From NCBI GenBank assembly GCA_020073665.1, contig JAIQEU010000011.1, forward strand, positions 124,001-188,000: DNA of 64,000 nt. The letters run 5' to 3'. Below the pieces are notes generated by a model. That model was not told the DNA's origin and did not search any database. It was given only the letters and a program-made list of their open reading frames with translations. A program made the translations under genes and the position numbers. Each line of letters starts with the position of its first letter. The stretch's first letter is position 1. Positions 31,563 to 61,284 of the stretch are shown here, in pieces. The DNA comes from Terriglobia bacterium (lineage in GTDB: Bacteria > Acidobacteriota > Terriglobia > Terriglobales > Acidobacteriaceae).

Positions 31563-31715
31563 GTTGGTTAGCCGCATTCGTTCAAGGTACGGCGCAAAGT
31601 CACCATGAACTATCCGTATCTTGCGGTCGAACTCTTTCGCCCCGGGTCGACTGGGATGGGCGCGAGCAATACACTATCAAGGTCCGGTTTCGCTCACCCT
31701 CGGACTCTGATCGGG

Positions 31716-39771: not shown

Positions 39772-39826
39772 ACGTAGTGCATCGGAAGCCAAACCCGGCG
39801 ATGACCATCATAAGGAGGTAGTTCAG

Positions 39827-42397: not shown

Positions 42398-42447
42398 CTC
42401 GCGAAAGCGGCAGGCTCACGCAGTAGATAGAAGAAGGGACAAAGCGT

Positions 42448-43182
42448 ATGCAGAGCGAAAGTACACGAGCTGCGGGAGACATCCTGGCGTATCGCTACAG
42501 CGTCTATGACCTGTTGCGCAGGATATTTCTCTGGGAAGTTCCACTTGAGTTCTTTGCAGAGTTGGTGAAGGCTTCGCAAGCGGAACTGGCTGGAGAAACC
42601 TGCAGCTCATCGGCGGAGGGTCCGCTCAAGAACTACTTGAACGGCCTCCCGCCGGATGACTTGTCTGAGATCCACCGGGAAATCCACATCGAGTACACCC
42701 GGCTGTTCATAGGACCGAAGCATTTGCCGGCGCCTCCGTATGAGTCGGTGTACAGGAGTCCGGGGCGTCTCATGATGCAGGACGAGACCATCAATGTGCG
42801 GTCTCTATATGCGAAACATGGGTTCCGAGTCACCCGGATGAATCGGGAGCCGGACGACACGGTGGGAATCGAACTGGAATTCATGTGTGCACTGAGCAAA
42901 GCCAGTCTCGATGCCTTGCAGGAGGGCGACACCCGAAGAGTGGTGGAGTTTGTTTCGGCGCAACGGGAATTCTGCGAGCTTCACTTATCGAAGTGGATGC
43001 CGGAATTCTGCGGTGACATCATTGGCAATTCAACCCATCCGTTTTGGAAGAGCGTTGCCGAGTTCACGCAGCGGTTTCTGGAAGAAGACGCCGCTGAGAT
43101 GAATGCCGTACTGGAGCAATTAGGTCGGTCATGCAAGGACGGAGACCCCAATCCGAAGCTCTCGGTAGGGTGTTGCTCCTGA
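42448..43182 (+). CDS. TorD/DmsD-family molybdoenzyme chaperone (first copy)
   Basis: The 244-residue all-helical cytoplasmic chaperone contains the TorD-family signature EYTRLFIGPKHLPAPPYESVYR and a later E-x-x-H-like region (QREFCELHLSKWMPEFCGDI). Such proteins bind the Tat signal of their molybdoenzyme and hold it until cofactor insertion. Its position directly after the first enzyme suggests that enzyme as client. A second, different TorD copy follows the second enzyme. The C-terminus ends in CCS. Confidence 0.85.
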   Translation: MQSESTRAAGDILAYRYSVYDLLRRIFLWEVPLEFFAELVKASQAELAGETCSSSAEGPLKNYLNGLPPDDLSEIHREIHIEYTRLFIGPKHLPAPPYESVYRSPGRLMMQDETINVRSLYAKHGFRVTRMNREPDDTVGIELEFMCALSKASLDALQEGDTRRVVEFVSAQREFCELHLSKWMPEFCGDIIGNSTHPFWKSVAEFTQRFLEEDAAEMNAVLEQLGRSCKDGDPNPKLSVGCCS

Positions 43183-43342
43183 CGCGTGCCCCGATCCTGG
43201 TCGCCAGCAGGGCTGAGGCGCAGGCCGAGGCGAGGCGGCGATCAGGCGGCATCGCTCGATCCGCTGCCGGACGTTCCTGGCCCTCCCCGATGGAGGAGCG
43301 TCCGGATTTCACCGCCTTGAGTTGGGTTGGAGGAGAGGCCTC

Positions 43343-45808: not shown

Positions 45809-45813
45809 ACACC

Positions 45814-46524
45814 ATGAGCAAGCGTTGGGGCATAGCCATTGATCAGAACCGGTGTATCGGCTGTTGGACCTGCGCCGTGGCTTGCAAAGCGATCAACAAC
45901 CAGCCCCTGGGCACTTATTGGAACCGCATTCTGACCAGCAGGCCGAACGAAAACGCTCCCACGACTGCTCCGGCCACGCTCGCTATTGATGTTCCGCACG
46001 GGACCTTCCCCGATGTTCAGCTGGCCTACCAGCCGACCTCGTGCCAGCACTGCCAGAACGCGCCGTGTGAGAAGGTCTGCCCGGTGAACGCCACCTTCCG
46101 TCGGGAAGATGGGGCCATCCTGGTCGACTTCGAAAGGTGTATCGGTTGCCGCTACTGCATGGCGGCTTGTCCTTACGGAGTGAGGACCTTCACCTGGGGC
46201 GAAGGCCAGTATGCCCCCGAGTTTGCGGTCGGCTACGGGAAGGACTACCGGTCCGCAGGCCGCCTGGTGTTCACACCGCAGCGGCCGATTGGCGTGGCGG
46301 AGAAGTGCACCCTTTGCGTGGAACGGATCGACGTCGGGAAACAACCCATGTGTGTCGATGCCTGTCCGGCTGGAGCCAGGGTCTTCGGCGACTTGAATGA
46401 CCCGGCCAGCGCCATCAGCGTGTCCATCCAACAGCAGGGCGGACGGCAGTTGCTCAGTGAACTGGGCACGGATGCGAATGTTTTCTATCTTCCGGTCTCT
46501 CGACCGAACAAAGTGCGGTCGTGA
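45814..46524 (+). CDS. Four-cluster ferredoxin subunit of the second molybdoenzyme (DmsB/PhsB-like)
   Basis: The 236-residue electron-transfer subunit has no signal of its own and would be carried across the membrane with the catalytic subunit. Four Cys motifs are visible: CIGCWTCAVACK, CQHCQNAPCEKVCP, CIGCRYCMAACPYG and CTLCVERIDVG...CVDACP. It starts five bases after the catalytic gene's stop. The membrane subunit follows after one base. Electrons would pass between the NrfD-type quinone site and the molybdenum centre. Confidence 0.93.
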   Translation: MSKRWGIAIDQNRCIGCWTCAVACKAINNQPLGTYWNRILTSRPNENAPTTAPATLAIDVPHGTFPDVQLAYQPTSCQHCQNAPCEKVCPVNATFRREDGAILVDFERCIGCRYCMAACPYGVRTFTWGEGQYAPEFAVGYGKDYRSAGRLVFTPQRPIGVAEKCTLCVERIDVGKQPMCVDACPAGARVFGDLNDPASAISVSIQQQGGRQLLSELGTDANVFYLPVSRPNKVRS

Positions 46525-46525
46525 A

Positions 46526-47779
46526 ATGGAAACCGAAGCGATGACAAACGCGAAGCAACTTGCGAGCAGCCGCTACCGCGCATGGCTAGGGTTGCTGGCG
46601 CTGCTCATGCTGGTGGCGTTTACTGCCTGGATATACGAACTGAGGTATGGTCTGGCCAGCACGGGAATGCGCAATGTGATTTCCTGGGGCGTCTACATCG
46701 TTACCTTTGCTTTCTTCATCAAGCTGTCCGCCGGCGGTTTGATCGTGGCCTCTTCGGCGGAAGTATTTGGCATAACTGAGCTGAAACCGCTGGCGCGTCT
46801 GGGCATCCTGACGGCAGCCGCCTGCGTTTTGGTAGCAGCCGCAACCATCATTCCAGATCTAGGCCGCCCCGCCCGTATTGGCAACTTGTTCCTCCATCCC
46901 AACTGGCATTCCCCGATGGTGTGGGATGTGGCCATAGTGAGCGCCTACTTCCTGCTCGCGGCAATGGACTTGCGAGTGATGTGCTCCGGTTCAGAGCCGC
47001 AGCGAAAGCACAAGCTGCTTACGATGTTGGCCATCATTGGGCTCCCGGCCGCCTTTGCTCTCCATTCCATCACCGCGTGGATCTTCGGGCTACAGATCTC
47101 GCGTACGTTCTGGAACACCGCGTTACTGGCTCCCCTGTTTGTGGTGTCAGCGATTCTATCGGGCACTGCCCTGATCGCTATCATCTCCGGCGCACTGCAG
47201 AGGTTTGGAGGGATCAGGCTTGAGGGATCTACCTGGCGCAAGCTAAGCGGGTTGATGGCTGTAAGCGCCGCTATTATGTTGTTCTTCCTCTTCAGCGAGT
47301 ACTTGACGGTGTTATGGGGAAATGTGCCCAGGGAAATGGTGACGCTGAAGATGATCCTGCCCGGAGGAGCGTTCTCGCTGTTGTTCTGGCTGGAGTGGGT
47401 CATCGGCGGAATTATTCCCTTCATTCTCTTGGTAGTGCTGCAAACCCGGCGCCGGGTGGGCGCGGTCGTAACCTGCGCGGTGCTCATCCTGGTCGGGGTC
47501 TTTGCGTTCCAAATAGAGCTGACTGCCGTTGGTATGGCCAACCCGCTGATTCAGCTTGCTCCCGGCACATCAATCGGCACCTACACGCCGGGCAGGTCAG
47601 TATTCCAATTCGTGGGGCAATACGCTCCCACCTGGGTTGAATATTCGATTGTTCTAGGACTCATCGCCTTTGGCGCCTTGCTGGTGACTGTCGGCTACCG
47701 CTGGCTCGGAGCGAGAGAGTTTCTGCCGACCAGGGCGGCGCGCACGGACGAGGCAATGCAGAAGGCGGTTCACGCGTGA
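46526..47779 (+). CDS. NrfD/PsrC-type membrane subunit
   Basis: The 417-residue integral-membrane protein has about nine to ten hydrophobic helices. It resembles NrfD/PsrC quinone-interacting subunits: GMRNVISWGVYIVTFAFFIKLSAGGLIVAS near the N-terminus and DLGRPARIGNLFLHPNWHSPMVWD in the conserved loop. It probably anchors the complex and exchanges electrons with the quinone pool. ATG 46526 lies one base past the ferredoxin gene's stop; ATG 46541 is an alternative. The stop overlaps the GTG of the next gene. It may serve both molybdoenzymes, as no other membrane subunit is present. Confidence 0.9.
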   Translation: METEAMTNAKQLASSRYRAWLGLLALLMLVAFTAWIYELRYGLASTGMRNVISWGVYIVTFAFFIKLSAGGLIVASSAEVFGITELKPLARLGILTAAACVLVAAATIIPDLGRPARIGNLFLHPNWHSPMVWDVAIVSAYFLLAAMDLRVMCSGSEPQRKHKLLTMLAIIGLPAAFALHSITAWIFGLQISRTFWNTALLAPLFVVSAILSGTALIAIISGALQRFGGIRLEGSTWRKLSGLMAVSAAIMLFFLFSEYLTVLWGNVPREMVTLKMILPGGAFSLLFWLEWVIGGIIPFILLVVLQTRRRVGAVVTCAVLILVGVFAFQIELTAVGMANPLIQLAPGTSIGTYTPGRSVFQFVGQYAPTWVEYSIVLGLIAFGALLVTVGYRWLGAREFLPTRAARTDEAMQKAVHA

Positions 47780-48423
47780 AACCAGCGACCGGCAATTTCG
47801 TTGACCATCGAAACCAGGCACCAGCAGCGCTGGTCCTGGCACTCAGCGACTGGTGGAGCCAGCCGAGCCCGGCCAGGATCACGCTGTGGAGCAGTTCTCA
47901 CTACATGCAGCGCATTAAGGCGATCTGCGCCCCGTCGGGACAACAGCCGGAAGCGCCGTTAGGCGCAAACGTCGACAAGCTGTTGTCCACAATCCATTTC
48001 GAGAGAGACGGGCTAATCGCGGAGTATGAGCGGCTGTTTGTTGGGCCTGCTGCCCCACCTTGCCCTCCCTATGAAGCAGTGTGGCGTACGGACAGGCCGA
48101 AGCACGAGCAAGGCACGGTGGTTGGACAGTGCACGGAAGAGGTGAAGCAGCTCTACCGGGACATGGGCATGCGACTTCGTCCCGGCGAGGTTGAGTTGGC
48201 GGACCACATTGCAATCGAATTGGAGGCGCTAACCTACGCTTGGAATTCCGGTGTCAATGTGCGAGTGGTCGAAGAGATATTGGATCGGCTGCAGGTATGG
48301 CTGCCGCGGTTTTGTGCCTCGGTGGTCGCGAATTCGCGATCAGAGTTTTACCGGGGCTTGGCTGATTTGACGCTGGAGTTCTTGCTGGGCGAACGCACGG
48401 TGCCGGTTAGGGCCGAGGCGTAA
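47776..48423 (+). CDS. TorD/DmsD-family molybdoenzyme chaperone (second copy)
   Basis: The 215-residue protein has the same signature as the first copy: EYERLFVGPAAPPCPPYEAVWR. It is otherwise distinct, so it is not a recent duplicate. GTG 47776 overlaps the NrfD-type stop in a GTGA arrangement. Its client is presumably the complete enzyme at 43343. Two chaperones for two enzymes in one operon suggest enzyme-specific maturation. Confidence 0.85.
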   Translation: MKPATGNFVDHRNQAPAALVLALSDWWSQPSPARITLWSSSHYMQRIKAICAPSGQQPEAPLGANVDKLLSTIHFERDGLIAEYERLFVGPAAPPCPPYEAVWRTDRPKHEQGTVVGQCTEEVKQLYRDMGMRLRPGEVELADHIAIELEALTYAWNSGVNVRVVEEILDRLQVWLPRFCASVVANSRSEFYRGLADLTLEFLLGERTVPVRAEA

Positions 48424-48483
48424 GTTCGCGGGCGAGGAAAACGGCTGAAACGTACGTTTGAGAAACCAGGAAGGACAAAAACG

Positions 48484-48648
48484 ATGTTTGGAAAATTAGG
48501 AATGCCGGAGTTGCTGCTCGTACTTGCGATTGCCCTGCTGATTTTCGGGCCGCGAAAACTCGGGGAGCTGGGTAAGAGCCTGGGCGAGGGAATCCGCGGA
48601 TTCAAGTCCGCCGTTTCTGATGGCGGGGAAGAGAAGCCGGCCAAGTAG
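48484..48648 (+). CDS. tatA: TatA-type Sec-independent translocase subunit
   Basis: This 54-residue protein has one transmembrane helix (MPELLLVLAIALLIFGP), the FGPRKLGELGKSLGEGIRGFK amphipathic helix that defines TatA/TatE, and a short charged tail. It is preceded by AGGA. Linked to Tat-dependent molybdoenzymes and their chaperones, it looks like a dedicated export component. No tatB or tatC is nearby, so it must work with proteins encoded elsewhere. Confidence 0.92.
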   Translation: MFGKLGMPELLLVLAIALLIFGPRKLGELGKSLGEGIRGFKSAVSDGGEEKPAK

Positions 48649-48692
48649 ATGAGTTATGGATGTATAGGAGCCGGGAATCCGGTTTCTGTTTT

Positions 48693-48825
48693 GTCTCCGA
48701 CCAGAGTTTTCTAAAAGTGCGCTGGCACTCATGAAAGTTCTGGCGGCGGCCAGCCCTGAAAAAGGGCATGGGCCCGAGGGTCACGCTGGAAATGGCGCTG
48801 CCTCCCGACTTGGAAAGGAGACCAA
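48693..48825 (+). promoter_or_regulatory. Probable Moco (molybdenum cofactor) riboswitch controlling moaA
   Basis: The 177-base gap between tatA and moaA is highly structured. GTCTCC (48693-48698) pairs with GGAGAC (48817-48822), closing a multi-branched fold over the moaA Shine-Dalgarno AAGGAG. Inside are GTGC-GCTG-GCAC, GCCC-TGAAAAA-GGGC and CGC-TGGAAAT-GGCG hairpins. CCTCCC (48801-48806) can compete for the same Shine-Dalgarno. Its position before moaA next to molybdoenzymes fits the Moco RNA motif. I assign it from context, structure and a partial resemblance to the consensus. Confidence 0.55.
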
Positions 48826-49839
48826 GTGGCTACATCGTTGCTGCAACTTCATCCGGAACACAGACCTTCCTATCGAGATCATCTCTGGCCGCTCCCGAGT
48901 ACGCGGCTACTCAGGCTCTCGGTTACCGACCGCTGCAATTTTCGTTGCCGCTACTGCATGCCTGCGGAAGGCGTCCCAGGCATCTCGCACGGTGAACTGC
49001 TTTCCCTCGAACAACTGGCGGAGATGGTGAGATGGCTCTCGCGCTACACCTCGATTGAGCGAGTGAAACTCACGGGTGGCGAGCCCCTGGTGCGCCGGGG
49101 CCTGGAGCATCTGGTCGCCGAGCTTTCCACCCTGCCCCGCGTGCGTGAAATCTCTCTGACCACAAACGGTTCGTTGCTGGCACGCCAGGCGCAAATCCTG
49201 AAAGAATCGGGACTGGCGCGAGTCAGTGTTTCGCTGGACTCGCTCGATCCGGAACGCTTCGCCGAGCTTTCGCGTGGAGGACAATTGAAAAACACGCTGG
49301 CGGGCATTGACGCGGCCCTGCAAGCCGGACTGGTCCCTCTCAAGCTGAACACCGTGCTGCAACGCTCCACCTGGCAAAGGGACGTTCCCATGCTGCTGGA
49401 TTTTGCCGCCGAGCGCGGGCTGGAGCCGCGCTTCATTGAACTCATGCGAACCGGCACCGAGCGTGCATGGTGCGACTCGGAGTTTGTGGCGGTCGACGAG
49501 GTACGCGAGTGGCTGGAGGAGCGAACCCCCGTGGTTTCGATCCCAACCCCCGCGGGAGTACCAGCACGCCAGTCGCAGATTCGCTGGGCAGGCAGGCTGC
49601 TGGATGTTGGTTGGATCGCACCCCGCTCACATCCGTTCTGCACCGCCTGCGAACGGGTTCGGCTCGATGCGCGCGGACGGTTGCGGCGCTGCCTTATGGA
49701 TCCAGAGGCGCTTGATCTGGTCCGACTAAGACAGACACAGGGTGACGAAAGCATGGACGCGCTCTATACCTACCTGCGAAGAAAGCAGGCGCCGGACGGC
49801 ATGGACAGCGAGTACGCTATGAGCCAGATCGGGGGATGA
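48826..49839 (+). CDS. moaA: GTP 3',8-cyclase MoaA (molybdenum cofactor biosynthesis)
   Basis: The 337-residue radical-SAM enzyme converts GTP to 3',8-cyclo-GTP, the first step of Moco synthesis. The N-terminal SAM cluster is C37/C41/C44 (CNFRCRYC). The C-terminal cluster is CTACERVRLDARGRLRRC, and the protein ends in Gly-Gly, which reaches the active site. The GTG at 48826 is preceded by GGAAAGGAG, the element that the leader structure can mask. Its stop overlaps the next gene's ATG (ATGA). Confidence 0.95.
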   Translation: MATSLLQLHPEHRPSYRDHLWPLPSTRLLRLSVTDRCNFRCRYCMPAEGVPGISHGELLSLEQLAEMVRWLSRYTSIERVKLTGGEPLVRRGLEHLVAELSTLPRVREISLTTNGSLLARQAQILKESGLARVSVSLDSLDPERFAELSRGGQLKNTLAGIDAALQAGLVPLKLNTVLQRSTWQRDVPMLLDFAAERGLEPRFIELMRTGTERAWCDSEFVAVDEVREWLEERTPVVSIPTPAGVPARQSQIRWAGRLLDVGWIAPRSHPFCTACERVRLDARGRLRRCLMDPEALDLVRLRQTQGDESMDALYTYLRRKQAPDGMDSEYAMSQIGG

Positions 49840-50888
49840 GCGTGGGAGAACACCGGGGTTACCAGCGATACAGCGCGCCCGTGCTGGCGGTCTGCGGCTA
49901 CTCGGGCTCCGGAAAGACTACGCTGCTGGCAGCGGCGATCCCGCGACTCGTGGCCCAGGGCCTGTCGGTGGCGGTCGTAAAGCACGACGCGCACGGCGCG
50001 ATCGTGGACACACCCGGAAAGGATAGCGACCGCCTCTTCCAGGCGGGTGCCACAGTGGCGCTGCGTGGGCCGGACCAGCAGTTTCAGCGCCGGCGCACGA
50101 CCGCATCGCTTTCCCTGCAAGCTACGCTCGCCGAGTTCTCACGCGACCATGACCTGCTGCTGGTAGAAGGACACAAAGACACGCCGCTCCCGAAGTTCTG
50201 GCTGGAGAGTTCCCCGCGCATCGCCACTCCCGAAAACGTTACCAACATCATTGCGACTCTGAAGTGGGACAGCCAGCGCCTGGAGGCTTTCCTCGGCTAC
50301 ATCCACAAGTGGCTGCCCCAGGCATGGGCCGATCGACCGCTCTATAGGGGACTGCTCGTGAGCGAGCCGATATTGAGCATGGAGCCCGGGAAAAAGTCGC
50401 CGAACGCCGGTCATCAACACCTCGCCGAGATCGTGGCGGCCCTGCGTTCCAGTTCAGGGTCCGATGACTTGCTGGTCTTGGGGACGGGATCGCTTCCGGA
50501 ATCGCTCAGAAATATCTCCCGGCTACCGGATGTCCCCGGATTCGGTGGTCCTTGCGCTAGCTTGATTGCCGCCCATCGCTGGCTTCCGGAGGCCGCGTGG
50601 ATGATGGTTAGTTGCGACTTTTCGGAACTCCGTGCCGAGGACATACAATGGCTGGCCGCCCAGCGGCGCCCCGGAACTTGGGCTGTAATTCCAAGGGACG
50701 ACGGTCATGGGTTGCCCGCGCTTGCGCTCTACGAACCGCAAGCCTTGGCTGCATTGGAGCGCCAGGCGATCGAGGATCCTGACCGCAGAGCGCGGTTGGT
50801 GACGTTGCTCGACCATCCGCGTACCCAGGCCATGATTCTGCTCCACCGCCGAGATCGCCGGCACGCCGCCGGCGCTGTGAGAAGGTAG
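49836..50888 (+). CDS. MobB-MobA-like fusion (molybdenum guanine dinucleotide cofactor synthesis)
   Basis: The 350-residue protein starts with a MobB-type GTPase domain (about 15-165): Walker A GYSGSGKTTL, then VVKHDAHGAIVDTPGKDSDR and LLLVEGHKDTPLPKFW. The second half (about 170-330) resembles the MobA nucleotidyltransferase (GFGGPCASLIAAHRWLPEAAWMMVSCDFSEL). However, the MobA signature GG-x-S-x-R-M-G-x-x-K is degenerate here (EPILSMEPGKK). It would convert Mo-molybdopterin to the MGD form used by the DMSO-reductase-family enzymes upstream. The ATG overlaps the moaA stop. Loss of the full MobA signature could mean a regulatory role for the second half. Confidence 0.85.
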   Translation: MSVGEHRGYQRYSAPVLAVCGYSGSGKTTLLAAAIPRLVAQGLSVAVVKHDAHGAIVDTPGKDSDRLFQAGATVALRGPDQQFQRRRTTASLSLQATLAEFSRDHDLLLVEGHKDTPLPKFWLESSPRIATPENVTNIIATLKWDSQRLEAFLGYIHKWLPQAWADRPLYRGLLVSEPILSMEPGKKSPNAGHQHLAEIVAALRSSSGSDDLLVLGTGSLPESLRNISRLPDVPGFGGPCASLIAAHRWLPEAAWMMVSCDFSELRAEDIQWLAAQRRPGTWAVIPRDDGHGLPALALYEPQALAALERQAIEDPDRRARLVTLLDHPRTQAMILLHRRDRRHAAGAVRR

Positions 50889-50936: not shown

Positions 50937-51377
50937 TTAGTACTTCCACATTCTGATTTCGTTGCCGCCCTTCTCGAAATGAACTTCATCCATGAGCTGC
51001 CGAATCAGGTAAACCCCGCGGCCGTGGTCGGCAAACACGTTCTCCGGCCGCTTTGGATCGGCCACGACGTCGGGATTGAAGCCCGGCCCTGGATCGGTGA
51101 TGATGACCACGATTCGGCCCTGGGGATCCGACTGCAACCGGCAGCGGACTTCCTTGGACCGGTCACTCTGGCATCCGTGGACCACGGCGTTGACCAGCGC
51201 TTCCTGCACGGCCAACTCAATCTCCAATCGCTTCTCATCCGGGACCAGCAACTGGACTAGGGTTGCGGATATGGCGTCGGTGACCGCGGCGATCGCTTCA
51301 GTGTCGGCGGGAAAGCCCAGGTTGAGCAGTTCGGATAGCTGCTTATCCGGACGGGAGGCATGGGGTTCAGGCGTCAT
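50937..51377 (-). CDS. RsbW-like anti-sigma factor/serine kinase (HATPase domain)
   Basis: The 146-residue protein has the GHKL ATPase motifs. The N-box is ELAVQEALVNAVVHG, the G1 motif is ITDPGPGFNP, and the lid/G2 segment reads DHGRGVYLIRQLMDEV. It is the kinase/anti-sigma class used in partner switching: it binds a sigma factor or target and phosphorylates a STAS antagonist. It lies 46 bases after a STAS gene on the same strand. No cognate sigma-B-type factor is adjacent. The SpoIIE-type phosphatase at 15966 could complete the cycle, though 35 kb away. Confidence 0.88.
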   Translation of the reverse strand: MTPEPHASRPDKQLSELLNLGFPADTEAIAAVTDAISATLVQLLVPDEKRLEIELAVQEALVNAVVHGCQSDRSKEVRCRLQSDPQGRIVVIITDPGPGFNPDVVADPKRPENVFADHGRGVYLIRQLMDEVHFEKGGNEIRMWKY

Positions 51378-51423: not shown

Positions 51424-51762
51424 TCAAGCGAAGGATTCCACCGCCGCATCGTCGGTCTCGAAAATCTGGAAGAGGTTCAGGACGCCCACCAGGCGCAGGG
51501 TTTGCACCGCGAACTTGGAGGGCTGTACCAGCTTGATGTTCCCGCCACGCTGCTTGGTGGAGGCCAGAAAACGCACCAGCAGGCCGATTCCGCTGGAATC
51601 GATCATGGGCACTTCAGCAAGGTTGATTACAATGCGCGTATCGCCGCCGCCCAGTGCTTCCTCGATAGTTTGACGCAAGCCATCTACGGCGGGGCCCACT
51701 CGGAGAGGTCCCCGAAGCTGAACGACCTGTACTTGTGAACGCTTACGGACATTAATGTCCAA
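51424..51762 (-). CDS. STAS-domain anti-anti-sigma factor (RsbV-like)
   Basis: The 112-residue STAS protein has the phosphorylatable-serine motif PMIDSSGIGLLVRFLAS. It would bind its kinase partner, encoded just downstream, when dephosphorylated. The start is taken as TTG 51762 after GGGGG, giving LDINVRKRSQVQVVQLRGPL as the N-terminal strands. The reading frame continues to 52017 without similarity and would run into the divergent regulator gene. The TTG start is inferred. Confidence 0.82.
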   Translation of the reverse strand: MDINVRKRSQVQVVQLRGPLRVGPAVDGLRQTIEEALGGGDTRIVINLAEVPMIDSSGIGLLVRFLASTKQRGGNIKLVQPSKFAVQTLRLVGVLNLFQIFETDDAAVESFA

Positions 51763-52015
51763 GCCACATCCCCCTTTCGAGGCTCTGCGATCATGACGGA
51801 CGTTGAGGGTGTCGTCACATCGCGTGCCCAAGTTACGGGAATGTGCAAGGTTTTGCAAGGGTGGGCTCCGCAGGCTCGCATCGCCGTCAAGATGCAGGCC
51901 AGACGGGACTGAACCGGGGGATCCGCAGGGCCGGCACCGCCTGTCGACAGGGGTGAAAATTTCATCCCCATAGGGGGAAAAATCTGCCATAATGCATGCC
52001 CTCCTGGGAGGAGAC

Positions 52016-53413
52016 ATGCGCAGTGCCGCCCGGATTCAGCCTTCCTGCTACAGCGTTGTTATCGTGACTACCGATGAATTGGTGCGTCCCGAAGCCGAGG
52101 CCTACCTGGCTCCCGACTATGACCTGAGCTTGGTCCAGACGTGGGATGAGTTGATGGCCCTGATCCAGGAAGAAGCCCCGGATGCCATCTTCCTGGATCT
52201 CGACACGATAGGACAGCGTAGTGAGGACGGAATCGCCGCCCTGGCTAAGCTGCGCTCCCTGCACCCGGACCTGATCCTGGTAGGGTTGACCCGCTCGAAC
52301 AGCCGCAACCTTCGCCTCAAGGCTGTGGACTCGGCAGTGGATGAATATTTTGTCGCTCCCATCAATTTCGAGGAAGTGCGGATCGTTCTGCGCCGGGCAT
52401 TGGAGAAGCGGGCGGTAGAGTTCGAGTACCGGAACCGCCACCGCGAAGCGGTGGAGCCGCAAGCCTGCGGCGAACTGATCGGCGGCAGCGAGCCGATGCA
52501 GCGGGTTTACGAAGCCATCCGGCGCGTCGCCGAGAGCAGCAGCACCGTGCTGATTCGGGGGGCAAGCGGGACCGGCAAAGAACTGGTGGCGCGAGCGATC
52601 GTTTCCCTCGGTCCGCGCTCGGACAAGCCGTTTGTCAGCATCAACTGCGCCGCTCTACCTGAAAATCTCATTGAAACCGAACTGTTTGGGCACGAACGAG
52701 GCGCCTTCACCGATGCCAAGACCGCAAGGGCAGGGCACATTGAGCTCGCCCACACCGGCACCCTGTTCCTGGACGAGATCGCTACGTTAGGCCTGGCGCT
52801 GCAGAGCAAGCTGCTGCGGGTCCTGGAGGACCGCGCGGTTACCCGCATCGGGGGCAAGGTCGCCAAGAGAATTGATTTCCGGCTGGTGGCCGCCACTAAC
52901 GAAGACCTGGAAGAGATGGTCCACACCGGCCGGTTTCGGGAGGACCTCTACTACCGCATCAATGTGGTTCCCATCGTGGTGCCACCGCTGCGAGAACGGC
53001 TGGGGGACCTACCCATCCTGGTGGACCACTTCCTCCGTATCTATTGCAGCGCCAACAATAAACCCCTGAAGCAGGTTGACGCGGAAGTTCTGGCGGTCAT
53101 GGAGGACTACAGCTGGCCGGGCAATGTGCGGGAACTGGAGAACGTCATTCAACGCCTCGTGCTGATGAACGACAGCCCGCTGATCGGCCTCAAGCACCTG
53201 CCCCAGCAACTGCTGGTGGCCAGTAACGCCAGCCAGGAGGCGATCCTGGTTCCGGCCGAGGGAGTCGATTTCGACACGGAAATGGACCGTATCGAGCTGG
53301 CTTACTTGACGGCTGCCCTGAACCGTACCGGGGGTAGCAAGTCCGCAGCCGCGGCCCTGCTGCGGATCGACCGCCAGCGTATGAAATACCTTTGTCGCAA
53401 GCGGAATCTATAG
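52016..53413 (+). CDS. NtrC-type sigma-54-dependent response regulator
   Basis: The 465-residue regulator has an N-terminal receiver domain (about 13-125, probable acceptor Asp61 in AIFLDLD), a AAA+ domain (about 150-385) and a Fis-type HTH (NRTGGSKSAAAALLRIDRQRMKYL). Walker A is GASGTGKE (182-189). The loop that contacts sigma-54 reads GAFTDA (229-234) rather than GAFTGA, a natural variant. GGGAGGAG precedes ATG 52016. No histidine kinase is adjacent. The next gene downstream has a candidate sigma-54 promoter. Confidence 0.92.
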   Translation: MRSAARIQPSCYSVVIVTTDELVRPEAEAYLAPDYDLSLVQTWDELMALIQEEAPDAIFLDLDTIGQRSEDGIAALAKLRSLHPDLILVGLTRSNSRNLRLKAVDSAVDEYFVAPINFEEVRIVLRRALEKRAVEFEYRNRHREAVEPQACGELIGGSEPMQRVYEAIRRVAESSSTVLIRGASGTGKELVARAIVSLGPRSDKPFVSINCAALPENLIETELFGHERGAFTDAKTARAGHIELAHTGTLFLDEIATLGLALQSKLLRVLEDRAVTRIGGKVAKRIDFRLVAATNEDLEEMVHTGRFREDLYYRINVVPIVVPPLRERLGDLPILVDHFLRIYCSANNKPLKQVDAEVLAVMEDYSWPGNVRELENVIQRLVLMNDSPLIGLKHLPQQLLVASNASQEAILVPAEGVDFDTEMDRIELAYLTAALNRTGGSKSAAAALLRIDRQRMKYLCRKRNL

Positions 53414-53420
53414 GTATGGA

Positions 53421-53453
53421 TTAATAATTAACCAACAATCGGTTAATTATTAA
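53421..53453. repeat. Perfect 13-bp A+T-rich inverted repeat, candidate activator binding site
   Basis: TTAATAATTAACC (53421-53433) and GGTTAATTATTAA (53441-53453) are exact reverse complements around AACAATC. It lies just after the regulator stop and about 100 bases upstream of the predicted sigma-54 -24 box. No U-tract follows, so it reads as an operator or enhancer rather than a terminator. Confidence 0.7.
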
Positions 53454-53552
53454 CCTAATGATAGGCAAATCATCTCGAGTCCTGACTATGGCCTAGTTTG
53501 CAACTCATTGATTCGGCATGAGGAACGGTTCTTCCAACGGTGCCAGCGGCTT

Positions 53553-53568
53553 TGGCATCCTCCGTGCT
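53553..53568 (+). promoter_or_regulatory. Candidate sigma-54 promoter for the ASTR-repeat gene
   Basis: TGGCAT-N5-GTGCT has GG at 53554-53555 and GC at 53566-53567, the exact -24/-12 spacing, with two or three departures from consensus. Transcription would start near 53579, 56 bases before ATG 53635. Confidence 0.5.
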
Positions 53569-53634
53569 CTGTACAGCAGCGAGCTGTTGGGGTGGCAACG
53601 AAATCCAAAAAATCTACGGCTTGGAGGAATTGAA

Positions 53635-53895
53635 ATGGCGATCCAGAAGAAGTCCTTGATCAGCAAGAGCACATCGAAGAAAGCTACATCGACGATGCCA
53701 AAAGTGAGCGAGAATCCTGGCGTAACCAAGGTAGCCTCGACCCGCATGGCCGCGACTCGCCTAGCCTCGACCCGCATGGCGGCGACCCGCGTGGCATCGA
53801 CTCGGCTAGCTTCAACCCGCGTGGCTTCGACTCGGCTGGCTTCAACCCGCATAGCCGCGACCCGCGTAGCCTCGGCCCGCACAAGAGCCATATAA
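53635..53895 (+). CDS. Small basic protein of Ala-Ser/Ala-Thr-Arg-hydrophobic pentapeptide repeats
   Basis: I recognise no family for this 86-residue protein. ATG 53635 follows TTGGAGGAA. Residues 1-33 are a Lys/Ser-rich leader (KKSLISKSTSKKATS). From Ala34, nine successive five-residue units read A-(S/A)-T-R-(M/L/V/I), then a degenerate tenth, ending RAI. Arginine recurs every five residues and the fifth position is always hydrophobic, a spacing compatible with a beta-solenoid or an amphipathic rod. Codons vary between units (acc/act, cgc/cgg, cta/ctg), so the protein pattern seems selected. No signal peptide is visible. Flanking sequence supports its own promoter and terminator. A PqqD-like/M50/HlyD export operon converges on it. 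Confidence 0.75.
   Translation: MAIQKKSLISKSTSKKATSTMPKVSENPGVTKVASTRMAATRLASTRMAATRVASTRLASTRVASTRLASTRIAATRVASARTRAI
53734..53868 (+). repeat. 15-bp coding minisatellite inside the ASTR-repeat gene
   Basis: Nine in-frame copies of a 15-bp unit, each encoding A-(S/A)-T-R-x. Copies differ mainly at synonymous third positions. There are no spacers, so it is not a CRISPR array. Confidence 0.85.
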
Positions 53896-53918
53896 GCTGG
53901 GCAAATAAGGTCAACACA

Positions 53919-53951
53919 AAAGGACCGCGTAGATGCGGTCCTTTGCTTTTT
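53919..53951 (+). terminator. Strong intrinsic terminator, probably bidirectional
   Basis: A 10-bp perfect stem (53919-53928 with 53935-53944) with loop GTAGAT is followed by GCTTTTT on the plus strand. Reading the minus strand, TTTTGTG follows the same stem, so it can also end the convergent M50 operon. Confidence 0.88.
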
Positions 53952-53961
53952 GCGGACCCAG

Positions 53962-56115
53962 TTACCAGAGCCTGCGATCGACCAGGTCATGGACGAAGAT
54001 CCAGGCGAATCCGGCGATGCTGCGGCGAGTCACGAAGATCTTGGCCGTACCGGTCATGCCTTCTCTCAGGGTGCCGGGGTTGGTCAGCAGCGCCGATCCA
54101 ATGTAGAAACGGGGCGGAGTAATCCCCTTCAGTTGGTCCTGGGGTACAAGTCCGGGCTCCACCGTACTGGAGGCAGGCGCCACAGCCGACAGGGTGGCGG
54201 TGAGAGGCAGGGCGAGCGATTCCGGCTGGAGCCTCACCTGCGTGCCGAGGCGAACATCCCGCATGCCGAACTCCGCGATGTAGATGCGAGCGGTCATGGT
54301 GGAGAAATCGGCGACCTCCGCGATCTCTTCGCCGGATTCGAGATAAGCTCCCAGCAGGTCCTCCAGCCGCGGAGTGGCGACCACACCAGGGATGGGGCTG
54401 GTCACCCGGAGAAGGGCCATTTGACCGGCGAGCGTCTGGTCGCGCTCGGCCATCTCCCGGCGCCCGGACTCGGCCGGGCCGAAATCGCCATAGCGCAAGA
54501 GTGCGAGGTTCACCTGGTCGGAGGCCACGTGCAGGTCGGCAGCCGCGCCTGCGGCTGCGGACTCCAGGGACAAATTGCTAAGTTCGACAAGAGGCTGGCC
54601 GGCGGCCACGGATTGGCCTTCCCGGGCCAGCACTCGCGTCACTCGTCCGGCGACCTCGGCATGGATCGACGCTTTGTGAACCGGCTCCAGCACAAAACGT
54701 CCGGCTACGAAGTCGGGCCAAACGGGTAGTAAAACCACCAGCAGTGCGATGCCCGCAAGGACCGCGATGCGCGGCCCCTTTAGCCAGGCTTTCACCCGCT
54801 CTCTCTTGTCCAAGTAGACAATCTTCATAAATCTCACCAGCATTTTGATCCTGGATTTGAAAACCCAATACCCGATGGCAATCGCAGGCACGAAAGCCCA
54901 GTCGGGCGTGTAGGCGTGCAGAATATGAAATGTCAACACCATCAGGAATGACAGGAGCAGATAGCCGTACAGGCCGGAAAGAATTGCATAGATGATGTAG
55001 AAAGGGCGGTGCCGCCGCGGAACATATTCCACCTCAGCCGGCAAATGGAAAATGTTCTTGCGGATGATGCCGGAAAGATAGGTGGTAGTTCTTTCTTTCA
55101 AGTCCGGCTCGTGAATCAGCTCGCAGAAAATCAGGTAGCCGTCCAGCTTGATCAGAGGGTTGAGATTCAGCAGGGAAACGCCAATCCCGGTCACCATCAT
55201 GACCTTGTACGCAATATCGTGGACAACCATGCCGGTTGCCGTGCCCCACCAAATCACGGTGGCAATGACGCAGAGAATCAGGTCAATCCAGATACCGGCG
55301 ATGGCGGTGGCAATCCGCTCCCACTTACCGCCATAGATCCAAACTTGCGAAGCATCGCAGAAGAAGCTGGGCGCGAAGTACATGAGGGTGAAGCCCATCT
55401 TCTCTACGTTGCCGCCGAAGTGTTTGCAGGTGAGGCCGTGGGCGGTTTCGTGGAAAAACGCCATGGCCGCAAACAGGATCCAGAATTCCAACAGGTCGGA
55501 TCCGGATTTTGCGGTGAAGTTGTAGAACTGGAAGCTATCCGTCCAGATTTCACCGAATTTGTCGGCCCACATCCAGAGCATCACCGCAAACGAGAACAAG
55601 GTGAGCAGAACAAACCAGGGAGTGTAGATGAACTTCAGCTTGGGGTAGAGCCGGGAGATATAACTGTCGGCGTTCGGCCACTCCTTTATGGTGATATCGG
55701 TGAAGTCAGGAACCTGGAAGCGTTTGCGTTTCTTGCGCCGCTGGCCGCGGAGTTCCTGCTGGAGGATGATGTTTTTCTCCAGCGGAGTCTTGTAGATAAA
55801 ATCGGTATTGTTGGCGAGGAAGCCGGCGATTTCGCGGACCCCGTCTTCGTCGAACAACACACCGGTTGCCTGCTCCGAGAGGTCGGAGATTTCCTGGTAC
55901 GACCGATTCCCGTCGAACAGCTGTATCAACTTCCACTGTTCGGGAGCAAACCGGAGAACCACTTCGCTGCCCGGCACCTTGGCGATCACAACCGGCCGGT
56001 CGTTCTCGATGTGTTCTTTGGTGATGACGCGCGAGTCAAGCTTGGGCTTGTCCCGCCGGATGACCCGTTCGGGCAGTTCAGGGAGTGCAGCGTCCAGTGC
56101 TTGAACGATGTTCAT
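53962..56115 (-). CDS. PqqD-like/M50 zinc protease/HlyD membrane hybrid
   Basis: This 717-residue polytopic protein has three modules. Residues about 40-115 resemble a PqqD-like winged helix (LRFAPEQWKLIQLFDGNRSYQEI), the RiPP recognition fold. About 165-460 is an M50 site-2-protease-like membrane domain with HETAH (222-226) and the third ligand Asp325 in LNPLIKLDGY. After a further helix near 480 comes a HlyD/biotinyl-lipoyl-type adaptor (VHKASIHAEVAGRVTRVLAREGQSV) in the periplasm. Similar architectures occur in bacterial peptide-processing and export clusters such as the YydH type. Its ATG overlaps the stop of the lipoprotein adaptor (ATGA). Metal ligands are intact, so proteolysis is plausible. 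The substrate is unknown. Confidence 0.86.
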   Translation of the reverse strand: MNIVQALDAALPELPERVIRRDKPKLDSRVITKEHIENDRPVVIAKVPGSEVVLRFAPEQWKLIQLFDGNRSYQEISDLSEQATGVLFDEDGVREIAGFLANNTDFIYKTPLEKNIILQQELRGQRRKKRKRFQVPDFTDITIKEWPNADSYISRLYPKLKFIYTPWFVLLTLFSFAVMLWMWADKFGEIWTDSFQFYNFTAKSGSDLLEFWILFAAMAFFHETAHGLTCKHFGGNVEKMGFTLMYFAPSFFCDASQVWIYGGKWERIATAIAGIWIDLILCVIATVIWWGTATGMVVHDIAYKVMMVTGIGVSLLNLNPLIKLDGYLIFCELIHEPDLKERTTTYLSGIIRKNIFHLPAEVEYVPRRHRPFYIIYAILSGLYGYLLLSFLMVLTFHILHAYTPDWAFVPAIAIGYWVFKSRIKMLVRFMKIVYLDKRERVKAWLKGPRIAVLAGIALLVVLLPVWPDFVAGRFVLEPVHKASIHAEVAGRVTRVLAREGQSVAAGQPLVELSNLSLESAAAGAAADLHVASDQVNLALLRYGDFGPAESGRREMAERDQTLAGQMALLRVTSPIPGVVATPRLEDLLGAYLESGEEIAEVADFSTMTARIYIAEFGMRDVRLGTQVRLQPESLALPLTATLSAVAPASSTVEPGLVPQDQLKGITPPRFYIGSALLTNPGTLREGMTGTAKIFVTRRSIAGFAWIFVHDLVDRRLW

Positions 56116-57008
56116 CGCGGCAGGTCGACACGGATCGTGGCCAGCATCCCTGGCCGCAGATCGGGGGCCGCTCCCTCAATCTGAGCCAACACCTCTATGG
56201 TGCCGCTGGAGGGATCCACGACCGGGCTCACATCGATTACCTTGGCGGCGTGCTCGACCGCCGGTGAGGTATCCGCCGAGGCAACGGAAACCATTTGTCC
56301 CCGCTTGATCGCTCCGAGTAATCGCTCCGGCAAGGTGAATTTCACCTGCAGCGGCGCCATAGCGGTAACCCAGAAGAGCCGGTCGCCTGCGGAAACTTTC
56401 TGGCCGGCGCGGACGTAACGGCGCGCGACAATTCCGTCAAAGGGAGCGATGATGCTGGTTTTCTCCAGCTCCAGTTCGAGGGATTTTTGCACCGCCTTGG
56501 CGTTGTTCAAGCTCTCGGCTTCGCGCTGCACTTCGAATTCGTCGGCCTCTTCCTTATATCGCGCGTGATCCAGTTCTTCCTTGGGGATCACCTGGGCGTC
56601 ATACAGTTTTTCCGCGCGAGCTTTGTCGGCCTGCAAGACCTTGGTCTCGGCTTGCCAGTTCTTCAAATTTGCCTCAATGGACCGGACCTTGGCGGCAGCG
56701 GCCTCGACGTCGGCGGAAATCTGGCGGTCATCCAGCTTCGCCAGAACCTGCCCTTTATGCAACAGGGTGCCGGGCTGGGCCAGGATCGACACCACCACAC
56801 CGTCCCGCAAGGCGGCGACGTCCACCTGGTTTTCCACCACCACCGGGCCAGAGGCGACGAAAACGTTTTCGGTTGGGATACTGGATGGCTGGGCCGCGGG
56901 TTCGCCCTGCATCGGCGCGGCGGCCACCACGGACGTCTGCCCGGAATCGCTGCATCCGCTGAAACTGAGTACCAGAATCGCCAGCCCTATCACGATGCAA
57001 CGTTGCAT
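56112..57008 (-). CDS. HlyD/RND-type periplasmic adaptor lipoprotein
   Basis: The 298-residue protein begins with a lipoprotein signal (hydrophobic IVIGLAILVLSF, lipobox FSGC), so it is lipid-anchored. A lipoyl half-motif (DGVVVSILAQPGTLLHKGQVLAKLD), a long alpha-helical hairpin (about 95-190) and the second half-motif (IIAPFDGIVARRYVRAGQKV) precede the beta-barrel domain. GAGGAG precedes ATG 57008. It lies 14 bases after the GAF-HlyD gene and overlaps the M50 gene. No outer-membrane channel or RND pump is adjacent. Confidence 0.88.
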   Translation of the reverse strand: MQRCIVIGLAILVLSFSGCSDSGQTSVVAAAPMQGEPAAQPSSIPTENVFVASGPVVVENQVDVAALRDGVVVSILAQPGTLLHKGQVLAKLDDRQISADVEAAAAKVRSIEANLKNWQAETKVLQADKARAEKLYDAQVIPKEELDHARYKEEADEFEVQREAESLNNAKAVQKSLELELEKTSIIAPFDGIVARRYVRAGQKVSAGDRLFWVTAMAPLQVKFTLPERLLGAIKRGQMVSVASADTSPAVEHAAKVIDVSPVVDPSSGTIEVLAQIEGAAPDLRPGMLATIRVDLPR

Positions 57009-57022
57009 AGTTTCTCCTCGTT

Positions 57023-59422
57023 TCACCAGCCCAGCCACGACCAAATCTCCGACCAAAACCACATGGCGGGCCGCCGGAAGAAGACTTCCCCGGCGGGTCT
57101 CCAGGCAGTGAAGATCTTGCTGCGGCCCTGCATGCCCGCGCGGATCAGGCCTTCGTTATTGGGTATGCTGACGCGCGCAAAAAAGACGTGTTCCTCGCCC
57201 TGCAACTGGCTCTTGGGACTGACCACGGTCAGTTCGCCGCGGAACGTGCGGGTGGGAAATCCGTCGAGTTTCACAGAAACCTGCTCGCCGGGCCGGAGAA
57301 GAGAGACGTCCTGCTGATCGATGGCAACGTCCACACCGGCCCGGGAGGTATCGACGATTTCTGCAAAGGTATCTCCGGGTTTCAGATCCCGCCCCACCGA
57401 ATCCTCGATATGGGGCGTGGCCACCAGGCCATCGATGGGCGACCGTAACTGTGTCTTTTCTAAACGCTCGCGGGCGCGGGCAACTTCAGCCGTCCAGTAG
57501 TCCACCTGCACCCGCTCGATCCCGGCCTCGGTACCGTCGTTGGCGGCAAGCGCCCGGTTCATTCGTGAAACTGCAGTCTCGTACTTGGCCTGCGCCCCAG
57601 CCAGTTCCGCACGATATGGCCAATCCGCCAGACTAGCCAGCACCGTGCCCGGTTTGACGGCGTCGCCTTCCCGCACATGCACTACCTGCACCACGCCTGC
57701 GACTTCGGGTTGTACGCGTGCGCTGTGGGCGGGAGCGACGATGGCAGGTCCATCGACACGCAGTGGCAAGGGGAACGCCGCCAGAAAGAGCAGGGCGATG
57801 CCCAGCCCAGCCATCAAGGCCAGGCGTCGCCGTTTCTCCAACGCCAGGAACTTACGCTTTTTCTCCAGGATCGGTTGGAGCACATCTATAAACGGCACCT
57901 CGCGGTAGAGCGAAGCGTTGCGCAGCGCCACCGTGGCCTGTCCGGCCAGCACCTTGATCATCTCCAGGTGCGCGGTGTTGAGGAAATCGGGGTCACTGCT
58001 CTCGAACGAGAGGACACCGACGCGGCCGTCATCATCCGCCAAAGGCAGGGCATGGTATGCCCGCATGCCACTGTGGGCAAAATACGACTGGAATTTCGCA
58101 CGTGTCTCCTCGCGATCCGCCGCGATTTCGTCGCCGTGCTGGGCCACCAAGATGGGCTCGCCGGTCAGGGAAGTCCACTCCAGCAAATCCTGCAAACGTG
58201 CGATGTCGGGGTCCTCAGGGTTGATCCGGGCAACGCCCGATACCGCCTTCATTTGCACCCGGCCGCGCTGATCCAGCGCGATGGCGGCTCGCTCATAAGG
58301 GATTACGTGGGCGGGCCCATTCACGATGGCATCCAGAACCCGATCCAGATCGAGTGTGGAAGTGATCTCGCCACTGATTTTTACCAGGGCCTCCAGAATC
58401 TCAACCTTACGTTCGGCTTGCAGCAGGCTGGCGTTGTGCAAGGCGTTACTGGCGGTCTCGCAAATGTGAGTCAGCAGGAAATGGTCGTCTTCGTCGAAAG
58501 GGAGTCCGTCAAGGCGGTTGACCGCTTCCACCACACCGACCAGATTCTCGTGCTCCAGCAGGGGCACGGCCAGAATCGAGAACACTGTTCCTTCGTCAAT
58601 CCCGGCGTTGCGCTTCTGCAGGCGTTCGTCATCGGCATGGTCCACCAGCAGGGCTTCGCCGCTATCGGAGATGTCTCCCGCGATGCCTTCTCCTGCCTTC
58701 TGCACCATGCCCAGCGTCACCGTCGGGTCATATCCGTCGCAGGCGACCAACTCAAGGGCGTCGTCACTCATCATCCATAGATTGATTCCCTGGACGTTCA
58801 TCACCTCCCCGAACTTCTTCGCAATCGTCCCGAGCAGCTCATCCATCTCCAGGGTGGAGTTAAAGACCTTTTCGAGGTCATACATCTGGGTGACGCGGCT
58901 GATGGAATGGAGGTTGGTGTTACGCTCATTCTCGTACGAAAGCGCGGTGGTGATGGCGTGGGCGGCGAGTTCGGGAACCTCGCCCAACGTCTCTAGCAGT
59001 CCTTCGGGAAACGACTGGTCGCAGTTCACCAGTTCGATCGCACCGCAAAGAATTTCGTCAAGCAGAAGAGGAATATACGCCAGGCCGGTCACGGTGCGCC
59101 GGATATCGAGATGAGCGTACTCTTCCCGCTGCAGGTCGCTGCCTTCGAACTGCATGAACGTCTTGTTGGCTGCCACCGTGCCCAGGGCGCCGGAATCAAA
59201 CTCGGTCACGTCCCCGACGGTGATCTCGCCGGCAGTCGCTTTGGGTATCCAAGCGGGGTTCTGCTGGTCCTCGATGACATACACCACGACCGCGATGCCC
59301 GGCAAAAGCTGCGCGATCTGATCGGCGATGACCTGCGCGCGTGGGCCTACCTCCTGTTGGGCCAACAGGGCCGCGGCAAACGGGGCCACGGGAACGGCGA
59401 AGCGCGGTCGTCGAGTCGCCAT
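57023..59422 (-). CDS. GAF-domain/HlyD membrane hybrid
   Basis: The first 540 residues of this 799-residue protein are cytoplasmic and contain about three GAF-like domains (for example GTVFSILAVPLLEHENLVGVVEAV and RAYHALPLADDDGRVGVLSFES). A single membrane helix follows at about 560-580 (LALMAGLGIALLFLAAFPLPL). A HlyD-type adaptor lies in the periplasm (HSARVQPEVAGVVQVVHVREGDAVKPG ... LRSPIDGLVATPHIEDSVGR ... VSPKSQLQGEEHVFFARV). It couples a potential ligand-sensing module to an export adaptor in one chain. It is the first gene of the three-gene operon. Confidence 0.87.
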   Translation of the reverse strand: MATRRPRFAVPVAPFAAALLAQQEVGPRAQVIADQIAQLLPGIAVVVYVIEDQQNPAWIPKATAGEITVGDVTEFDSGALGTVAANKTFMQFEGSDLQREEYAHLDIRRTVTGLAYIPLLLDEILCGAIELVNCDQSFPEGLLETLGEVPELAAHAITTALSYENERNTNLHSISRVTQMYDLEKVFNSTLEMDELLGTIAKKFGEVMNVQGINLWMMSDDALELVACDGYDPTVTLGMVQKAGEGIAGDISDSGEALLVDHADDERLQKRNAGIDEGTVFSILAVPLLEHENLVGVVEAVNRLDGLPFDEDDHFLLTHICETASNALHNASLLQAERKVEILEALVKISGEITSTLDLDRVLDAIVNGPAHVIPYERAAIALDQRGRVQMKAVSGVARINPEDPDIARLQDLLEWTSLTGEPILVAQHGDEIAADREETRAKFQSYFAHSGMRAYHALPLADDDGRVGVLSFESSDPDFLNTAHLEMIKVLAGQATVALRNASLYREVPFIDVLQPILEKKRKFLALEKRRRLALMAGLGIALLFLAAFPLPLRVDGPAIVAPAHSARVQPEVAGVVQVVHVREGDAVKPGTVLASLADWPYRAELAGAQAKYETAVSRMNRALAANDGTEAGIERVQVDYWTAEVARARERLEKTQLRSPIDGLVATPHIEDSVGRDLKPGDTFAEIVDTSRAGVDVAIDQQDVSLLRPGEQVSVKLDGFPTRTFRGELTVVSPKSQLQGEEHVFFARVSIPNNEGLIRAGMQGRSKIFTAWRPAGEVFFRRPAMWFWSEIWSWLGW

Positions 59423-61080: not shown

Positions 61081-61236
61081 GCGTGCTTTCGGCTCTATGA
61101 AACGAAGATCAAGGACCATGCGGCGGCTTTGTTGGGCCGTCGACCTTCAATATCTTAAGGTGGCCAGCAAAGCCGCGCCTATAGCCAAAGAGCCTGCCCA
61201 TGTGACCAAAGTGCAGCATGGCCTGGGGTTTTGGCC

Positions 61237-61284
61237 GGGAATGGCAAGAAGTCCAGGGCCGGGAATGGCAAGAAGTCCAGGGCC
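61237..61284. repeat. 24-bp perfect tandem duplication
   Basis: Two identical adjacent copies of a 24-base unit lie just upstream of the small plus-strand gene at 61353. If translated in the same frame, they would encode REWQEVQG twice. Confidence 0.8.

Follow-up and report, generated by a model that had tools for sequence, protein, structure and literature searches.

What does a small protein built almost entirely of five-residue repeats do next to the genes of a membrane protease and its adaptors? This question is raised by a locus in Terriglobia bacterium (assembly GCA_020073665.1), for which we analysed 64,000 nucleotides of contig JAIQEU010000011.1, positions 124,001 to 188,000 (the window). 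A plus-strand gene at 53635-53895 encodes an 86-amino-acid (aa) peptide with a leader (about aa 1-30) followed by VASTR/MAATR repeats at 53732-53881, where TRF finds a 15-base unit in 10 copies. The gene has GGAGG 7 bases 5' of its ATG and faces a minus-strand operon. With a probability of about 0.7, we propose that this small open reading frame (ORF) encodes a leader-bearing repeat peptide, which the minus-strand operon serves as a dedicated apparatus for processing and export.

The repeat peptide gene and the operon it faces

The operon consists of three tightly spaced genes, the stop of the second overlapping the start of the third. They encode a GAF-domain protein with a membrane anchor and an HlyD arm (57023-59422, 799 aa), an HlyD-type adaptor with a lipoprotein-like N-terminus (56112-57008), and a 717-aa protein that combines a domain resembling PqqD and the RRE (recognition element of ribosomally synthesized and post-translationally modified peptides, RiPPs) with an M50 zinc protease and an HlyD arm (53962-56115). 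The original prediction had described HlyD-type modules in all three, one of them fused to GAF sensors, and Pfam confirms this: GAF and HlyD match the first protein, HlyD the second, and HlyD the third, with M50 just below the cut-off. The adaptor start was read at 57008, its frame being open from 57062 already, and a crude pattern finds the lipoprotein-like N-terminus in 9 of 15 adaptor orthologues as well. Using tblastn, we found a homologue of the GAF-HlyD protein in 25 of the 25 loci compared. A terminator-like hairpin, picked out by eye from the sequence without a terminator scan, lies between the convergent genes (53921-53955).

In the 717-aa protein, the PqqD/RRE-like domain occupies about aa 19-110, the HETAH motif aa 222-226, the LDG motif aa 324-326 and the HlyD arm about aa 476-700. 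The HExxH and NPL motifs and the Asp of LDG are kept, with H222, E223, H226, N317, N319, P320 and D325 invariant in all 25 homologues aligned, in agreement with the intact zinc site first reported for this protein. A PqqD-like fold had also been suggested; it is supported by a profile of the N-terminal region (21 sequences), whose best PDB sequences are PqqD 3g2b (E 2.2e-5), TbiB1 (0.001) and PqqC/D (0.0019). Among the 25 M50 homologues, the Pfam PqqD model matches seven, the NCBIfam daptide leader-peptidase model all, and the YydH/LiaK (epipeptide) model 24.

Leader conservation across genomes

The original prediction expected short repeat or leader-bearing ORFs to be linked to the protease gene in other genomes, and the repeat protein not to occur widely without it. 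We screened 41 relatives, including the host genome (Acidobacteriota, 5.42 Mb, 62 contigs). When the whole 86-aa peptide is used as query, only the peptide itself, its own antisense frame and three weak matches with internal stops are recovered because the core is not conserved, and a leader profile (A2) was used instead. A2 matches nine places at E 3.2e-8 or better, among them the leader of the 86-aa peptide at E 3.2e-8, and the next best match has E 0.29. These places lie in the same eight genomes that encode full-length M50 homologues (8 of 41 relatives, nine copies, one split between frames); the leader is present in 8/8 M50-positive relatives versus 0/33 of the others. As A2 was built partly from these loci, the positive side of this result holds partly by construction, while the absence from the 33 relatives and the match in G024, whose peptide is on a separate contig (L118), are independent. 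Two draft genomes have an M50 gene broken into two frames, through sequencing error or as a pseudogene (L051 5487-7596; L056 6-2086). In the host genome, the whole system has a second copy (G000:C9, L045 6653-14152), with the repeat unit AMRVSNAS.

Across 396 genomes of the phylum, A2 at E 0.01 or better is found in 9 of the 13 M50-positive genomes of the host's family and in none of the other 383, and all nine matches sit at the M50 operon. Five of these genomes are outside the profile (G131, G140, G192, G200 and G372). As to the M50-positive members of the family that lack a match, G269, G364 and G394 have a leader that is diverged as judged by eye, and the locus of G309 is cut. Thus the repeat protein is not widespread without the operon: its leader occurs in 8 of 41 relatives and 9 of 396 phylum genomes, all M50-positive.

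All 22 close Acidobacteriota loci with an uninterrupted stretch from the M50 gene to the regulator contain an ORF with leader and repeats on the opposite strand (the window, L044, L045, L047-L051, L054-L056, L091-L099, L101 and L102). Nineteen of them belong to the host's family (f1) and three are named metagenome-assembled genome (MAG) loci (L054-L056); the four named relatives are Acidobacteria MAGs with M50 protein identities of 59-85%. L053 is cut inside the repeats by a contig end, and L046 and L100 are cut before the peptide. Five complete loci are more distant (L103, L104, L108, L109 and L157); four have a leader-bearing ORF, with repeats in two of those four. Altogether, 27 loci are intact from the M50 gene through to the neighbouring activator, a homologue of which adjoins the M50 gene in complete loci; the leader occurs in 26 of 27 and repeats in 24 of 27. 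The expected linkage is therefore borne out.

The family consists of a conserved leader and a tandem-repeat core whose unit varies between genomes. The main leader type reads M.IQKKSLI..R...KKA..A or MEKKSLI and is diverged in L096, L097 and L099. The units include KIAPKVAP (L044), LSGGKG about 20 times (L047), AADAGSM about 18 times (L048), AAKAPAKL (L049), GLDSASGT (L050), GGALSK (L051), ARVTPH (L054), RVQS (L055), SLSKQAHLSKQI (L092-L095), KLAPN (L098), LAKSTN (L099), LAESK (L101), LSNSP (L102) and ATKGGL (L118), with loose periodicity only in L056 and L096/L097. Precursors in the peptide loci are 60-185 residues long, and the peptides of L093 and L095 are identical, as are those of L096 and L097. 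Judged from these sequences, the leader and not the repeat defines the peptide family, and ASTR is the unit of this genome only. Pfam and NCBIfam contain no credible known family for these peptides; the L048 core does match TigB (E 4e-6, 26.8 bits, cut-off 70), which we attribute to low sequence complexity and discount.

Selection, expression and the nature of the product

We compared each codon with the codon one period on in 26 precursors, by a simple count whose totals take in two repeat-less ORFs and two identical pairs. Synonymous differences amount to 831 over 1375 sites (proportion, pS, 0.60) and nonsynonymous differences to 801 over 3725 (pN 0.22). The clean cases are L047 (62/2), L048 (71/8), L098 (40/5) and L051 (38/4), and pS and pN are close in L093, L095, L104 and L109. 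The repeats are old at the DNA level and kept at the protein level. That near-perfect repeats are kept while the unit differs between genera suggests that repetitiveness itself, not one sequence, is selected. These results bear on the idea of a chance low-complexity ORF, which could point to the tract being open in other frames (for example, a 161-aa antisense ORF at 53505-53990). Only 1 of 1054 control ORFs from the 25 loci reaches the periodicity shown by 24 of the 26 family members, and this control, together with the conserved position, orientation and leader, the promoter-like site and the codon pattern, makes chance hardly credible.

Upstream of the peptide gene lies a gene for a sigma-54 activator with a receiver-like domain, AAA+ and HTH_8 (51992-53413, plus strand). 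The receiver domain retains its Asp, but most of the 14 relatives aligned have Ala or Ser in place of the customary Lys close to the end of the domain, so that control by phosphorylation may be absent. A sigma-54 -24/-12 promoter-like site, TGGCATCCTCCGTGCT (53553-53568, plus strand; shuffle p 0.038), is found 66 nt 5' of the ATG of the peptide gene. A GG-N10-GC site of this kind stands 28-78 nt before the start of all 26 precursor genes, and 24 of the 26 sites beat 95% of shuffles, the exceptions being L047 (0.078) and L055 (0.054). Further upstream, the palindrome GGTTAATTATTAACC at 53441-53455, with an imperfect second copy seen by eye at 53418-53433, is likely an activator-binding site. 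GGTTAAWWWTTAACC occurs once in the host genome, at 53441-53455 (control 0); the second copy of the system lacks the exact palindrome. Of the 26 precursor genes, 14 have a GGTTAA...TTAACC-type palindrome some 190-220 nt upstream.

With promoter-like site and activator adjoining the peptide gene, and with most cores being basic, the peptide might instead act within the cell or as a regulator, linked to the sigma-54 activator, and the M50 operon would be a mere neighbour. However, presence of the peptide follows the M50 gene, two cores are acidic (L048 and L050), and in L049 the activator points away and an ORF intervenes, yet the peptide gene still adjoins M50. We therefore consider a regulatory peptide quite improbable.

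Returning to a processed and exported peptide, a working sequence of events can be proposed. The sigma-54 activator next door would turn on the peptide gene. By analogy with EpeP and MpaP, the 717-aa membrane protein may hold the conserved leader with its PqqD/RRE-like domain and would use its M50 zinc site to cut this leader off the repeat core, at or within the inner membrane. The HlyD arms in all three operon proteins could together make up a conduit through the periplasm along which the core travels outwards. A TolC-type channel and an energy source, unlinked and encoded outside the locus, probably assist. The host genome encodes one SecA. As the original prediction had noted for this operon, export pumps are not linked to it: no ATP-binding cassette (ABC), resistance-nodulation-division (RND) or outer-membrane-channel family is common to the 25 neighbourhoods, in which the flanking genes are not all individually annotated. 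A MacB/FtsX-type permease gene is located 21 kb from the operon (31605-32933, plus strand).

What kind of product would leave the cell? None of the 26 precursors has a cysteine, no residue type is common to all cores, and no modifying enzyme is common to the 25 loci; these points favour a plain repetitive polypeptide with an extracellular use (coat, matrix or adhesive) over a natural product with heavy modification. Cores of opposite charge also speak against one fixed role, such as that of a cationic antimicrobial, and for a role in which repetition matters. The same absences count against a true RiPP, the core of which would be modified by enzymes from outside the locus and might be cleaved into numerous small products. 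Such a RiPP would fit the leader/core layout, the RRE-like domain and the leader-peptidase relatives; indeed, the locus has what a broad RiPP-type definition asks for, namely a short gene with a conserved leader and a variable core beside a recognition domain, though a linked modifying enzyme common to the 25 loci is missing. Repetitive cores also have a precedent in thiovarsolins (PMC6511847, excerpt). Overall, we hold a RiPP of this type to be unlikely. The AlphaFold model of the peptide (predicted local distance difference test, pLDDT, 58.3) is uninterpretable.

Remoter homologues, neighbouring genes and known systems

Two further leader kinds accompany remoter M50 genes. The second, of the T[IV].LT..Q...I...TG type, starts an ORF in the same gap in L103, L104, L108 and L109, outside the host family. 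Its profile (A3) matches 7 of the 396 phylum genomes, exactly the seven with M50 scores of 283-347 bits. Three of the matches are in genomes outside the profile (G064, G093 and G229). In these three the leader stands on a separate contig and is followed by a repetitive core particular to that genome, truncated by the contig end in G093; the M50 contig of G229 stops within the 3' part of a matching (SGKSL) repeat. The third leader, LE[EKQ]RIAP, heads 15 short ORFs of 31-73 aa, which are distributed over 6 of the 20 remoter M50 loci (four in L144, at 7840-8315 on the minus strand; three each in L145, at 139-489, plus, in L146, and in L159, at 8023-8666, plus; one each in L147 and L148), with one more in L110 (3303-3533, minus). 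These ORFs come in up to four near-identical copies beside the M50 genes, which they likewise face in L144 and L145, and are mostly non-repetitive, the repetitive ones being those of L147 and L148 and one of L159. The genomes concerned are G326, G086, G073, G302, G174 and G245, which are all six of those scoring 209-249 bits, together with G058 (179 bits). The third leader was absent from the other 29 loci and the window scanned, from L052 and from seven plasmid loci, and none of the three leader kinds was found in the remaining 14 of the 20 remote loci. Three leader kinds thus track three M50 score groups (above 500, 283-347 and 209-249 bits). In L150, heptad-like repeats of the KQVADEP type (about 6790-7013, minus strand) lie in the frame leading into the M50 part. 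Apparent GAF-HlyD/M50 fusions in L103, L106 and L108 were rejected, as both matches are in different frames.

More remote relatives of the apparatus, found by tblastn in 34 of 72,556 plasmid records, adjoin giant-protein genes. We read seven plasmid loci (L087, L088, L089, L164, L165, L166 and L167). In L087, L089, L165 and L167, adaptor and PqqD-M50 genes come after a giant-protein gene, with spans of 12-38 kb and annotations as LEPR-XLL, Ig or LamG; L088 has no annotation, L164 begins at the record end, and in L166 the upstream 6 kb contain no annotated gene. Genes for SecA-like proteins come next in four loci (PF07517, E 1e-90 to 1e-104), the gene sets spanning L087 1-12078, L165 1-14276, L166 6160-12051 and L167 1-12326, and TolC genes follow in L089 and L165. 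The Acidobacteriota genome G355 (L160 4961-16639, minus strand) has the same order: the end of an RTX-repeat protein, a GAF-HlyD adaptor, PqqD-M50-HlyD and a SecA-like gene. From their gene content, these loci, in Alphaproteobacteria and in an Acidobacteriota genome, probably serve the secretion of giant proteins and are so far uncharacterised. The third leader resembles the name LEPR-XLL; this is a resemblance only, as the N-termini of the giant proteins lie outside the stretches read. LEPR-XLL is mentioned in passing in PMC10868602 (excerpt).

Such neighbours could mean that the apparatus exports other cargo, with the peptide in an accessory role, as a plug or in assembly or signalling. The peptide loci have no other cargo-like gene in common, however, and we find this very improbable. 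The other clusters present in at least three of the 25 loci are antisense ORFs of the operon genes and four families (TPR, trypsin-PDZ, signal peptidase S26 and RNase III) in three congeneric loci.

Several results weigh against the peptide and the operon forming a dedicated processing and export pair. The 717-aa protein scores below the NCBIfam cut-offs (139.3 of 300 and 41.6 of 225 bits), and its AlphaFold model, built from four sequences, is poor (mean pLDDT 41.6), with a usable stretch at aa 31-102 only, where three helices follow three strands at pLDDT about 68-80; its fold search therefore backs the HlyD part only. ATPase, pump and outer-membrane channel are not at the locus. A sigma-54 site comparable to that of the peptide gene precedes the apparatus operon in just 1 of 17 loci and the palindrome in none of the 17; with 16 of 17 operons lacking that site, co-expression of peptide and operon would be conjectural. 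Many of the 22 close loci are from related species, some of them close, so the independent cases are fewer than 22. The second leader comes without repeats in L104 and L109, and L157, which has adaptor, M50 and activator genes, contains just a short ORF without leader or repeats. Finally, the remoter M50 clades pair with short ORFs that are mostly repeat-free, which counts against a narrow form of the idea. The main idea of the original prediction, the repeat protein as candidate substrate of this apparatus, is supported overall; the ASTR unit is genome-specific, and the remoter clades mostly lack repeats.

A wider reading takes in all of these loci: an ABC-independent, leader-directed secretion system, in which the PqqD-M50-HlyD protease, with further HlyD arms, would read and clip the leader and thread the remainder out. 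Cargo would range from peptides of 31-185 residues, many with genome-specific tandem repeats and sigma-54 control, to giant proteins of thousands of residues with a SecA-like ATPase assisting, and leader and protease would have changed together in at least three lineages. The third leader in six remoter loci and the SecA-like matches raise our estimate for this system, which we place somewhat short of even odds. What appeared an isolated oddity becomes a peptide family with a testable partner apparatus, a promoter-like site and a regulator, and the link to giant proteins points to a little-studied secretion principle (leader reader, M50 protease and HlyD arms) with very different cargo.

Elsewhere in the window, minus-strand genes for a STAS protein (51424-52017) and an anti-sigma-kinase-like HATPase_c_2 protein (50937-51377) precede the activator gene. 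Both recur, less regularly than the other neighbours, the STAS gene being missing from some loci and the HATPase gene an occasional neighbour. The plus-strand region 37066-50888 contains, by eye, molybdopterin oxidoreductase-like and iron-sulphur-like genes, followed by MoaA-like and MobB/MobA-like genes; a radical SAM gene at 48826-49839 carries a Mob_synth_C domain. At 61233-61284, a 24-base unit is perfectly repeated in 2.2 copies.

We compared the locus with known systems. Tripartite efflux and type 1 secretion systems (MacA, HlyD) share the HlyD/MacA-like adaptor modules, whereas here there are adaptors only, with no linked ABC, RND or major facilitator superfamily pump or TolC. Like the precursor of thiovarsolins (VarA; PMC6511847, excerpt), the peptides have a repetitive core; unlike there, nothing similar to the YcaO/TfuA pathway genes is common to these loci. 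LEPR-XLL-type giant-protein loci (Alphaproteobacteria and G355) have a homologous HlyD adaptor and PqqD-M50-HlyD in the same order, but their giant cargo and SecA-like ATPase are neither common to the peptide loci nor present at the window. The daptide peptidase MpaP (NF041824), which is described as an intramembrane enzyme cleaving off the leader in an RRE-dependent manner (PMC10036551, excerpt), has the RRE/PqqD-like and M50 layout, and its model covers aa 24-419 of the window protein at E 1.7e-40. In contrast to daptides, however, the window protein reaches 139.3 bits against the cut-off of 300 and has a fused HlyD arm, daptide genes are not common to these loci, and the precursors are repetitive, none of the 26 read ending in Thr. 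In epipeptides, an M50 peptidase, EpeP/YydH (NF058609), likewise adjoins a small precursor and is thought to perform both cleavage and export (PMC10885120, excerpt); the window protein differs in its score (41.6 bits versus 225) and HlyD arms, and no radical SAM family is common to the loci. No description of such a system was found in the open-licence literature searched. As far as sequence comparison goes, the parts come from known families and their combination fits none of the systems tested; we class the locus with the leader-dependent M50 peptide systems, as a variant of these.

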